DNA of 64,000 bases from Pectobacterium actinidiae (GTDB taxonomy: Bacteria; Pseudomonadota; Gammaproteobacteria; Enterobacterales; Enterobacteriaceae): NCBI RefSeq assembly GCF_000803315.1, contig NZ_JRMH01000001.1, forward strand, positions 2,666,001 to 2,730,000, written 5' to 3'. Each line of letters opens with the position of its first letter. The stretch's first letter is position 1. The notes under the pieces are model-generated. The model was given only the letters and a program-made list of their open reading frames with translations, was not told the DNA's origin and searched no databases. The position numbers were made by a program, and so were the translations under genes. This document shows, piece by piece, positions 2,594 to 8,370 of this stretch.

Positions 2594-4405
2594 ATGACGA
2601 TACTTACTACTCGAATTACGCTCAGTACAATACTGGCGGCAGGATTATCATTCTCAGCCGTTAATTATGCGGCAACAAATCATAATGAGCAGGATACAAA
2701 GACGGTAATAGCCGTCAATGATGGCGTTTCTGCGCATCCCGTGTGGTGGAAAGAAGCTGTGTTCTATCAGGTTTATCCACGTTCATTTAAAGACAGTAAC
2801 GGTGATGGGATTGGTGATCTTAAAGGCCTGACCGAAAAGCTCGATTATTTAAAAACACTCGGTATTAATGCCATCTGGATTAACCCCCATTATGATTCAC
2901 CGAATACCGATAACGGATACGATATTCGTGATTATCGAAAGATAATGAAAGAATATGGCACAATGGATGACTTCGACAACCTCATTGCAGAAATGAAAAA
3001 GCGTGATATGCGACTAATGATAGATGTTGTCGTTAATCACACCAGCAATGAACACAAATGGTTTGTTGAAAGTAAGAAATCAAAAGATAATCCTTATCGC
3101 GACTATTACATTTGGCGCGATGGTAAAGATGGCACACCGCCTAATAATTACCCCTCCTTCTTCGGCGGTTCCGCCTGGCAGAAAGATAACGTAACACAGC
3201 AATATTATTTACACTATTTTGGCGTACAGCAGCCCGATCTGAATTGGGATAATCCCAAAGTACGTGAAGAAGTGTACGATATGCTGCGTTTCTGGATTGA
3301 TAAAGGCGTTTCCGGGCTACGTATGGATACCGTAGCAACCTTCTCTAAGAATCCGGCATTTCCCGATCTCACGCCAGAACAATTGAAAAACTTCGCTTAT
3401 ACCTACACACAAGGTCCAAATCTGCACCGTTACATTCAGGAAATGCACCAGAAGGTGCTGGCAAAATACGACGTCGTTTCCGCAGGTGAAATTTTCGGTG
3501 TACCGCTTGAAGAAGCGGCCCCGTTTATCGATCAACGTCGTAAAGAGCTCGATATGGCCTTCTCATTCGATCTTATCCGTCTCGATCGCGCCGTAGAAGA
3601 AAGATGGCGACGGAATGATTGGACGCTATCCCAGTTCCGTCAGATCAACAATCGACTGGTCGATATGGCCGGGCAATATGGCTGGAATACTTTCTTCCTG
3701 AGCAACCATGATAACCCGCGTGCTGTATCACACTTCGGTGACGATCGCCCTGAGTGGCGTATCCGTTCTGCTAAAGCGTTGGCAACCCTAGCGTTAACAC
3801 AGCGAGCGACCCCGTTTATTTATCAAGGGGACGAATTGGGCATGACCAACTATCCGTTTACCTCCTTGTCTGAATTTGATGACATTGAAGTTAAAGGTTT
3901 CTGGCAGGACTTTGTAGAGACCGGAAAAGTGAAACCTGATGTCTTTTTGGAAAACGTGAAACAAACGAGTCGCGATAACAGCCGAACCCCATTCCAATGG
4001 AGCAATGCGGAACAGGCGGGCTTTACTACAGGTACGCCCTGGTTCCGTATTAACCCCAACTACAAGAACATCAATGCAGAGGATCAAACGCAAAACCCAG
4101 ATTCCATCTTCCATTTCTACCGTCAGCTGATCGCACTGCGTCACGCCACGCCGGCGTTCACCTACGGAGCCTATCAGGATCTCGATCCGAATAATAACGA
4201 GGTACTTGCTTATACTCGTGAACTCAACCAGCAACGTTATCTGGTTGTGGTGAACTTTAAAGAGAAACCGGTGCATTACGCGCTGCCGAAAACGCTTTCC
4301 ATCAAGCAAACACTGTTGGAAAGTGGGCAGAAAGATAAGGTAGCACCGAATGCAACCTCACTTGAGCTCCAGCCGTGGCAGTCAGGTATTTATCAGTTGA
4401 ACTGA
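2594..4405 (+). CDS. palI: Sucrose isomerase (isomaltulose/trehalulose synthase), GH13, exported
   Basis: 603-aa GH13 enzyme with an N-terminal signal peptide (about 26 aa, hydrophobic LSTILAAGLSFSAV, likely cut after NYA), so probably periplasmic. The catalytic barrel starts at WWKEAVFYQVYPRSFKD. Nucleophile D245 (GLRMDT), acid/base E299 (AGEIFG) and D373 (NHDNPR) are all present. The block NHDNPRAVSHFGDDRP, the stretch DDIEVKGFWQD and the RLDRx motif (329-333) are hallmarks of sucrose isomerases rather than ordinary oligo-1,6-glucosidases. The specificity motif reads RLDRA; the Klebsiella/Erwinia isomaltulose synthases, as I recall, have RLDRD. The residue before NHD is Ser, where known enzymes have Asp or Gly. 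The sugar PTS and GH4 enzyme nearby support a sucrose-isomer pathway. A sucrose hydrolase or trehalose synthase-like activity is the main alternative. Base composition is more AT-rich than aroH. Confidence 0.85.
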   Translation: MTILTTRITLSTILAAGLSFSAVNYAATNHNEQDTKTVIAVNDGVSAHPVWWKEAVFYQVYPRSFKDSNGDGIGDLKGLTEKLDYLKTLGINAIWINPHYDSPNTDNGYDIRDYRKIMKEYGTMDDFDNLIAEMKKRDMRLMIDVVVNHTSNEHKWFVESKKSKDNPYRDYYIWRDGKDGTPPNNYPSFFGGSAWQKDNVTQQYYLHYFGVQQPDLNWDNPKVREEVYDMLRFWIDKGVSGLRMDTVATFSKNPAFPDLTPEQLKNFAYTYTQGPNLHRYIQEMHQKVLAKYDVVSAGEIFGVPLEEAAPFIDQRRKELDMAFSFDLIRLDRAVEERWRRNDWTLSQFRQINNRLVDMAGQYGWNTFFLSNHDNPRAVSHFGDDRPEWRIRSAKALATLALTQRATPFIYQGDELGMTNYPFTSLSEFDDIEVKGFWQDFVETGKVKPDVFLENVKQTSRDNSRTPFQWSNAEQAGFTTGTPWFRINPNYKNINAEDQTQNPDSIFHFYRQLIALRHATPAFTYGAYQDLDPNNNEVLAYTRELNQQRYLVVVNFKEKPVHYALPKTLSIKQTLLESGQKDKVAPNATSLELQPWQSGIYQLN

Positions 4406-4410
4406 CACAA

Positions 4411-4441
4411 CGTCCGCTCGTCGTATCCCGATGAGCGGACG
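4411..4441. terminator. Bidirectional terminator between convergent isomerase and GntR genes
   Basis: CGTCCGCTC (4411-4419) pairs perfectly with GAGCGGACG (4433-4441) around a 13-nt loop. It lies between the isomerase stop and the GntR gene stop, so it can serve both strands. Flanking T-runs are poor. Confidence 0.65.
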
Positions 4442-7045: not shown

Positions 7046-7047
7046 CC

Positions 7048-8370
7048 ATGAAAAAATTTTCAATTTTGATCGCAGGCGGCGGCAGTACTTTTACCCCAGG
7101 CATTGTTCTCATGCTACTGCAAAATCAGGATCGTTTTCCGATCGGTACGCTGAAATTTTATGACAACGACAGCGCGCGTCAGGAAATCGTCGCCGAAGCC
7201 TGCAAAATTTTGCTGCAAGAGCAGGCGCCTGAAATCAAATTTAGCTATACCACCGATCCACAAACCGCATTTACCGACGTGGACTTTGTGATGGCACACA
7301 TTCGCGTCGGTAAGTACCCCATGCGCGAACTGGATGAAAAAATTCCGCTGCGTCACGGCGTGGTTGGGCAAGAAACCTGCGGCCCGGGCGGGATTGCCTA
7401 CGGTATGCGCTCCATTGGCGGCGTGCTTGAACTCGTGGATTATATGGAGCAGTACTCACCACAGGCGTGGATGCTAAATTACTCCAACCCAGCGGCAATC
7501 GTGGCAGAGGCGACCCGCAAGCTACGTCCCAATGCGAAAATACTCAATATCTGTGATATGCCAATCGGCATAGAAGGCAGAATGGCAGACATCCTTGGCC
7601 TGAAATCACGTAAGGAGATGACGGTACGCTACTACGGACTGAATCACTTTGGCTGGTGGACATCGATTCAGGATAAAGACGGTAACGAGTTACTGCCAAC
7701 TATCCGCGAACACGTCGCGCAACATGGCTATATTCCACTGACGGTTGAGAACCATAACGAAGCAAGCTGGAACGATACGTTTGCCAAAGCAAAAGATGTC
7801 TGCGCACTCGATCCGCAGACGCTACCCAATACTTACCTGAAATATTATTTCTTCCCCGATTATGTCGTGGCGCATGCCAATCCTGACTATACGCGAGCCA
7901 ATGAAGTGATGGCCGGACGGGAAAAACAGGTATTTGGCGCCTGCCGTGCCATCACTGAAGCGAAATCGGGTACGGCTGGCGATCTCGAAATTGATGAACA
8001 TGCGTCTTATATTGTCGATCTGGCACGCGCTATCGCATTTAACACGCGAGAAAGAATGCTATTGATTGTTGAAAACAACGGTGCGATACGTAACTTTGAT
8101 CCTAGCGCGATGGTGGAAATTCCGTGTCTCGTCGGAAGCCACGGGCCAGAGCCGCTGCAAATAGGCGACATCCCTACCTTCCAAAAAGGATTAATGAGCC
8201 AACAGGTTGCCGTCGAAAAACTGGTGGTTGAAGCCTGGGAAGAAGGGTCGTATCAAAAGCTGTGGCAAGCGCTGACATTGTCCAAAACAGTTCCCAGCGC
8301 CAGCGTCGCCAAAGCCATTTTGGACGATCTGATTGATGCCAACCGCGATTTCTGGCCTGAATTACACTAA
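7048..8370 (+). CDS. aglB: 6-phospho-alpha-glucosidase, GH4
   Basis: 440-aa cytoplasmic glycosidase of family GH4, which uses NAD+ and a divalent metal in a redox-elimination mechanism. The N-terminal Rossmann motif is LIAGGGSTFTPG. The metal ligands are C169 (in CDMP, the signature of alpha-specific members such as GlvA and AglB) and H200 (GLNHFGWW); D170 in CDMP is the expected catalytic acid. It would split phosphorylated isomaltulose, trehalulose, maltulose or maltose into glucose 6-phosphate and a hexose. It starts two bases after the PTS gene with no room for a promoter. Length and motifs match Klebsiella AglB and Bacillus GlvA (recalled). An intrinsic terminator follows. Confidence 0.9.
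   Translation: MKKFSILIAGGGSTFTPGIVLMLLQNQDRFPIGTLKFYDNDSARQEIVAEACKILLQEQAPEIKFSYTTDPQTAFTDVDFVMAHIRVGKYPMRELDEKIPLRHGVVGQETCGPGGIAYGMRSIGGVLELVDYMEQYSPQAWMLNYSNPAAIVAEATRKLRPNAKILNICDMPIGIEGRMADILGLKSRKEMTVRYYGLNHFGWWTSIQDKDGNELLPTIREHVAQHGYIPLTVENHNEASWNDTFAKAKDVCALDPQTLPNTYLKYYFFPDYVVAHANPDYTRANEVMAGREKQVFGACRAITEAKSGTAGDLEIDEHASYIVDLARAIAFNTRERMLLIVENNGAIRNFDPSAMVEIPCLVGSHGPEPLQIGDIPTFQKGLMSQQVAVEKLVVEAWEEGSYQKLWQALTLSKTVPSASVAKAILDDLIDANRDFWPELH

Follow-up and report, generated by a model that had tools for sequence, protein, structure and literature searches.

Analysis of a 64,000-nucleotide stretch of the Pectobacterium actinidiae genome (the window; contig NZ_JRMH01000001.1, positions 2,666,001 to 2,730,000) uncovered a compact block of four genes between aroH and hmuS, encoding a predicted sucrose isomerase, a GntR-type regulator, a phosphotransferase system (PTS) permease of the EIICB type, and a glycoside hydrolase of family 4 (GH4). 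The original prediction had placed four genes of these families here; open reading frames lie at those positions, and matches in Pfam, NCBIfam, and the Protein Data Bank (PDB) agree with the enzyme families (Table 1). The gene names aroH, hmuS, hmuT, ppsR, and selO are presumed.

Table 1 Features of the four-gene block and its surroundings, with positions in the window.
Feature	Position	Strand	Description
Isomerase gene	2594-4405	+	603 aa; open reading frame with Pfam alpha-amylase
Regulator gene	4445-5200	-	251 aa as listed; Pfam GntR and UTRA
EIICB gene	5441-7045	+	534 aa; Pfam PTS_EIIC and PTS_EIIB
GH4 gene	7048-8370	+	440 aa; Pfam GH4 N- and C-terminal domains
aroH	1135-2226		flank; block between aroH and hmuS
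hmuS	8575-9624		flank
Conserved AACTATAAGTTGACC block	2404-2418	+	upstream of the isomerase gene, over a -35-like hexamer
Promoter-like pair	TTGACC 2413-2418, TAAAGT 2435-2440	+	spacer 16; 9/12 match
Inverted repeat GTCCGCTC/GAGCGGAC	4412-4440		between converging genes; possible two-way terminator, read from sequence
Candidate operator AAAAG-N(2-4)-ACC[TA]CT	5292-5313	+	regulator-EIICB gap; 9/9 aligned loci, including Serratia
CRP-like site GTTGA-N6-TCACA	5327-5342	+	upstream of EIICB

Judged from its sequence, the 603-aa enzyme is a sucrose isomerase, based on its score, catalytic residues, aromatic clamp, and RxDRx motif. Its best solved relative in the PDB search is the Erwinia rhapontici isomerase 4how (975.1 bits), followed by the isomerase structures 3gbd (Protaminobacter SmuA, 960.2 bits) and 1m53 (948.0 bits) and the trehalulose synthase 1zja (925.5 bits); the top non-isomerase structure is an oligo-1,6-glucosidase at 602.3 bits. 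The protein was aligned with 20 other rows, and residue roles were transferred by position from excerpts of PMC3777934, according to which two Phe residues form a clamp whose removal abolished isomerization. In this alignment the nucleophile D245, the acid E299, and D373 line up with the Erwinia, Serratia, and Raoultella rows, and the clamp F301/F325 is present. The N-terminus, read by eye, is signal-like (MTILTTR, a hydrophobic stretch, and NYA/A), in keeping with the earlier description of a signal-bearing isomerase.

Two observations weigh against this assignment: the protein also exceeds the cut-off of the NCBIfam phosphotrehalase model PRK10933 (564 vs 535), and its near relatives are publicly named mostly oligo-1,6-glucosidase, alpha-glucosidase, or glycoside hydrolase family 13. 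Instead of an isomerase, the exported enzyme might accordingly be an ordinary oligo-1,6-glucosidase, sucrase, or phosphotrehalase, in a locus that serves maltose or alpha-glucosides in general; maltose and isomaltose are also used by AglA/AglB-type systems in excerpts of PMC5309279. We consider this very unlikely. Isomerase structures are favored over hydrolase structures by approximately 370 bits, and the genome's own TreC-like protein, 43% identical to the isomerase, carries KVDYP in place of RLDRA and Ser at the first clamp Phe, although the second is kept. A phosphotrehalase would, moreover, act inside the cell, where a signal sequence is not needed.

In place of the exact isomaltulose-synthase motif RLDRD, the window isomerase carries RLDRA at residues 329-333. 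Because the motif is inexact in trehalulose synthases too, the mismatch bears on the main product rather than on the family. RLDRA is found in 4/4 Pectobacterium rows and RLDRS in 4/4 Brenneria rows; RLDRD rows come from Erwinia rhapontici, Serratia, Raoultella, Enterobacter 10-1, and a Klebsiella plasmid; Erwinia piriflorinigrans has RMDRG, and two Lonsdalea rows depart altogether. Lonsdalea britannica (L010:8001-12345) encodes two tandem isomerase-like genes, with LLYRH and LFYRY at the RLDRD position. The excerpts of PMC3777934 report more trehalulose when the charged residues of RLDRD were mutated, an unchanged product ratio when RLDRD was swapped for RYDRA in one enzyme, and an influence of the ten-residue loop after the motif. 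The corresponding loop here, VEERWRRNDW, is isomaltulose-synthase-like in length and charge, and isomaltulose is predicted with low certainty to be the main product.

The EIICB protein scores above the cut-off of the NCBIfam alpha-glucoside IIBC model TIGR02005 (820.5 vs 607.3 bits) and contains LTNCATRLR, which we take to hold the phosphorylated Cys. It had been proposed to lack an EIIA and to share EIIA(Glc). A Pfam scan found no EIIA domain in the window EIICB, and the genome encodes, elsewhere, a stand-alone EIIA(Glc)-type frame (172 aa, 170.3 bits) as one of six EIIA-domain matches; by analogy with Klebsiella AglA, the permease is likely charged via EIIA(Glc). For the GH4 enzyme, the best solved relative is the 6-phospho-alpha-glucosidase 6dux (854.6 bits), which we take to be Klebsiella AglB, followed by the GlvA-type maltose-6'-phosphate glucosidase 1u8x (754.5 bits), 6vc6 (431.5 bits), and 6wbt (414.9 bits), vs 226.2 bits or less for 6-phospho-beta-glucosidases. 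These scores uphold the predicted alpha type and place the enzyme with AglB. Its translation contains ICDMP, with the CDMP motif that we assume to be a 6-phospho-alpha-glucosidase sign. A second GH4 gene, approximately 50% identical, lies beside another EIICB-like gene (L002, G000:C1:3263993-3265306); GH4 relatives at 50-52% occur in 20/25 Pectobacterium genomes and could cloud alpha-glucoside phenotypes.

We consider it probable that the block encodes an accessory pathway for sucrose isomers, leading from the isomerase through PTS uptake to GH4 hydrolysis, on a cassette exchanged at one genomic site. As its family and residues suggest, the exported isomerase would convert periplasmic sucrose to isomaltulose and trehalulose. 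By analogy with AglA/AglB, EIICB charged by EIIA(Glc) would then take up the isomers as 6'-phosphates, and the GH4 enzyme would split these into glucose 6-phosphate and fructose. Until it binds a sugar phosphate, the GntR protein would keep at least the EIICB-GH4 operon repressed; CRP is the probable activator of this operon. Because an ordinary ScrA-type sucrose PTS scores over the family cut-off in 25/25 Pectobacterium genomes, the isomer pathway would be an extra route.

From 305 relatives of the isomerase, 80 loci were kept, with up to 8 kb on each side (some shorter). An AglB-type GH4 (>300-aa match, 71-99% identity) lies near the isomerase in 8/80 loci, corresponding to 8/10 loci with an R(L/M)DR motif vs 0/70 others; the isomerase-GH4 linkage is more than chance. 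The E. rhapontici locus, with a distant GH4 match of 23% identity, was left out of the count. The eight loci, from P. betavasculorum, four Brenneria, Serratia plymuthica, Raoultella terrigena, and Enterobacter sp. 10-1, also carry EIICB and GntR genes in the covered stretch. The window proteins share only 30% identity with the EIICB and 42-43% with the GntR of Raoultella and Enterobacter sp. 10-1, and the pairing therefore exists with two different PTS sets. Isomerase matches at E 1e-100 were found in 22/25 Pectobacterium genomes: four encode the isomerase itself (96-100%), while the other 18 encode only a 42-44% TreC-like protein (a name we infer). The same four genomes encode the GH4 enzyme at 99-100%, 16 others only the 50-52% paralogue, and five have no match, such that isomerase and GH4 are jointly present or absent in 25/25 genomes. 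Carriers include P. atrosepticum CFBP1526 (G005) and P. betavasculorum NCPPB 2795 (G006), and all four genes are open over their full length in the three Pectobacterium carriers other than the window's genome. An even draw of 394 genomes of the order contained the isomerase at E 1e-200 in two, both Pectobacterium carriers.

Alternatively, the isomerase and the PTS/GH4 genes could be neighbors without a joint pathway, with the isomers hiding sucrose from the plant or rivals and the PTS serving plant alpha-glucosides. The genes lie in separate transcription units with no shared operator evident and a CRP-like site at EIICB only (see below), and isomerase-like genes also occur without the GH4 gene: no neighboring AglB-type GH4 was found at the loci of E. 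piriflorinigrans and Lonsdalea, and a GH4 match was absent from two Klebsiella plasmid regions (in L223, 2.9 kb upstream was covered) and one Azotobacter plasmid region with an isomerase-like gene. Mere adjacency, which we regard as unlikely, is opposed by the recurrence of the pairing across Pectobacterium, Brenneria, and Serratia, by its reappearance in Raoultella and Enterobacter sp. 10-1 alongside another EIICB/GntR set, and by the joint presence or absence across Pectobacterium.

Near-identical plasmid copies of the isomerase were sought and rejected, as among 453 plasmid records matching at E 1e-50 the best of the matches listed reaches 70% and none exceeds 80%. The Klebsiella variicola plasmids L222 and L223, typed as conjugative IncF, carry isomerase-like genes approximately 66-70% identical, annotated as alpha-glucosidase and located beside genes for an aminotransferase and an aromatic amino acid transporter.

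The regulator is a UTRA-type GntR protein by Pfam. Its likely start is the GTG at 5158, yielding 237 aa, since the Serratia and Raoultella relatives start there (MIYK); the listed start is probably 14 codons early (5158-5200). Upstream of EIICB, the CRP-like site occupies one and the same alignment position in 9/9 loci, with 8 or 9 of 10 bases matching; 23 of 63,985 window positions score 8 of 10. CRP-like matches upstream of the isomerase reach at best 6-8 of 10, and the single 8 (L086) overlaps the start codon. The AACTATAAGTTGACC block found there is kept in 4/4 Pectobacterium and 4/4 Brenneria loci aligned, with one base differing in L004, and is absent from Serratia L008 in the alignment. 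Promoter-like sites of the quality of the accompanying pair number 12 vs 9.1 expected in shuffles, making the pair weak alone. Directly 3′ of the putative -10 of the isomerase is a hairpin (GAATCC-AGAATA-GGATTC, 2449-2466) that also occurs in three other Pectobacterium loci, with one arm base differing in L086. The inverted repeat between the isomerase and regulator genes was not among the results of a terminator scan with a loop limit of 8.

A general operator shared by the isomerase and EIICB promoters appeared promising by eye, with 14 of 17 positions matching in B. alni, but did not hold up as a general feature. Across eight genomes, which are not independent, the isomerase block was matched in the genome's own EIICB promoter above shuffles only in B. 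alni, with the other seven at or below shuffles, and the joint scan gave p 0.56. Used as a weight matrix against the sequences 5′ of nine isomerase genes, the EIICB block produced no corrected value below 0.05 (0.056 at the lowest, in Serratia); in L084 and L086, its highest-scoring position did coincide with the conserved isomerase block (uncorrected p 0.001). That the same repressor also acts on the isomerase gene is not proven by these results. The block had been described as one 5.8-kb unit, and it is indeed a gene cluster; a single unit is not borne out, because gene direction yields three transcription units (isomerase, forward; regulator, reverse; EIICB-GH4, forward) and the shared operator failed in 7/8 genomes.

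The suggestion that the locus looks inserted is correct insofar as an empty site exists. hmuS was found in 25/25 Pectobacterium genomes, with aroH directly upstream at a gap of 208-242 bp in 21, and the block occupies this interval in 4/4 carriers. Carrier sequence differs from empty sites from just after aroH and rejoins them approximately 150 bp before hmuS; the joints show no obvious direct repeat, integrase, or tRNA, though no systematic search was made there. A single recent insertion is made less likely by Brenneria hezel4-2-4 and B. alni, which have the block in the order ppsR, block, hmuS, while aroH is unmatched in the stretch. In B. izbisi neither neighbor lies within 8 kb, and B. 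salicis has no hmuS on the right (the left side falls outside the stretch). Between ppsR and the isomerase, the Brenneria segments L004:7718-8000 and L006:7612-8000 contain no aroH match, unlike Pectobacterium. One internal stop codon interrupts the aroH match that precedes the block in the carrier G007 (L220:6328-7404).

In a tree of gyrB and leuS (gyrB only for Brenneria), the carriers are not monophyletic, because G007 pairs with the non-carrier G008 and G005 and G006 group with the non-carriers G015 and G024 (support 100 in both cases; the backbone is weakly supported). At fourfold sites among the four Pectobacterium carriers, regulator, EIICB, and GH4 diverge by 5-18%, compared with 19-36% for aroH, 22-34% for hmuS, 24-49% for hmuT, and 17-26% for leuS. 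Lower divergence than in aroH, hmuS, and hmuT suggests that these three genes have been exchanged between species via the flanks. On this reading, Pectobacterium species would acquire, lose, and trade the cassette at a single site, probably through flank recombination, as the divergence and the fixed position would indicate. Two values call for caution. gyrB divergence is low too (8-13%), and since constraint also lowers divergence, low divergence alone is no proof of exchange; and while the isomerase diverges by 14-15% among G005, G006, and G007, the window isomerase is 27-29% from these and looks like a separate allele. Pectobacterium and Brenneria are near saturation (53-68% for the block, 51-57% for hmuS), such that divergence does not date their shared place. 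A single recent insertion is not preferred, given the same place in two Brenneria and the non-monophyletic Pectobacterium carriers, nor is vertical descent alone within Pectobacterium, given the lower divergence of the three genes; loss combined with interspecies exchange explains the data no less well than one insertion does.

Whether the classical determinative tests of Pectobacterium (reducing substances from sucrose, acid from palatinose, and acid from alpha-methylglucoside) have their genetic basis in this exchangeable cassette, with its scattered presence explaining a pattern that does not follow species and its RLDRA and RLDRS isomerases possibly forming their own product-ratio class, is in our view evenly balanced. 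The isomerase would produce reducing disaccharides from sucrose, EIICB and GH4 would account for acid from palatinose, and uptake by PtsG or EIICB followed by GH4 would yield acid from alpha-methylglucoside. In classical tables, P. atrosepticum, P. betavasculorum, and P. odoriferum are entered as positive. Among published descriptions, P. odoriferum strains produce acid from palatinose and alpha-methylglucoside and P. carotovorum and P. brasiliense strains do not (PMC6286560). P. wasabiae strains and the P. atrosepticum type strain differ in reducing sugars and alpha-methylglucoside, with no direction stated (PMC3486870), P. carotovorum SCC1 is without both traits (PMC5738896), and both tests were used on potato isolates, with 14 plants identified as P. 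atrosepticum, again with no direction stated (PMC6027278). Other reports conflict with a causal link. P. betavasculorum strains are described as negative for reducing substances and alpha-methylglucoside, and as showing half-rate growth on palatinose and isomaltose (PMC10991766), yet all four genes are open in the type strain NCPPB 2795; and eggplant P. brasiliense strains are positive for both (PMC10673395), in conflict with PMC6286560. If correct, the link would provide a gene-level cause for tests used to tell soft-rot bacteria apart and a PTS route for the products of an exported sucrose isomerase, and it would put RLDRA and RLDRS motif-variant isomerases on offer for isomaltulose and trehalulose work.

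Among the titles and abstract openings listed from openly licensed papers on sucrose isomerase, Pectobacterium, and PTS operons, no report of this locus appears. The closest known systems match it in part. Like Klebsiella AglA/AglB, the block combines an EIICB without EIIA, dependent on EIIA(Glc) in Klebsiella, with a GH4 6-phospho-alpha-glucosidase closest to 6dux. Excerpts of PMC5309279, citing Pikis 2006, report that E. coli with Klebsiella aglA and aglB grows on isomaltulose, trehalulose, turanose, maltulose, leucrose, isomaltose, and alpha-methylglucoside and only minimally on sucrose, that AglA operates with EIIA(Glc), and that a GlvA-type GH4 alone is enough for alpha-methylglucoside, which PtsG imports. 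The window block differs from AglA/AglB by the addition of an exported sucrose isomerase and a GntR regulator.

The E. rhapontici pal cluster combines the PalI isomerase with palatinose uptake and hydrolysis genes and is of the ABC type. It resembles the window block in having an isomerase, 68% identical, beside genes for use of its product, but the E. rhapontici locus (L007) shows, by eye and with no family search, ABC-like frames and a LysR-type regulator, and it contains no EIICB match and a GH4 relative of only 23% identity. The claim that isomerase and isomer-utilization systems are known separately consequently stands for the PTS/GH4 route, which is distinct here, and not for the placement of an isomerase beside product-use genes, which already exists in pal. 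Serratia plymuthica, the species known for SmuA/PalI, carries together an isomerase (67% identical), a GntR regulator (57%), an EIICB (67%), and an AglB-type GH4 (81%); there, the regulator and isomerase genes run in one direction and EIICB-GH4 in the other, and the motif is RLDRD rather than RLDRA. With the trehalulose synthase MutB (RYDRA), the window isomerase shares the final Ala of the motif and, for a protein taken as MutB by source name and RYDRA (P0032), 65% identity, but its post-motif loop is isomaltulose-synthase-like. The block is real and recurrent, a four-gene pathway whose parts all come from known families and which represents a PTS-type variant of the isomerase-linked use of sucrose isomers. 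Although it is no categorically new system, it is of value for its connection to determinative tests and for its motif variants.

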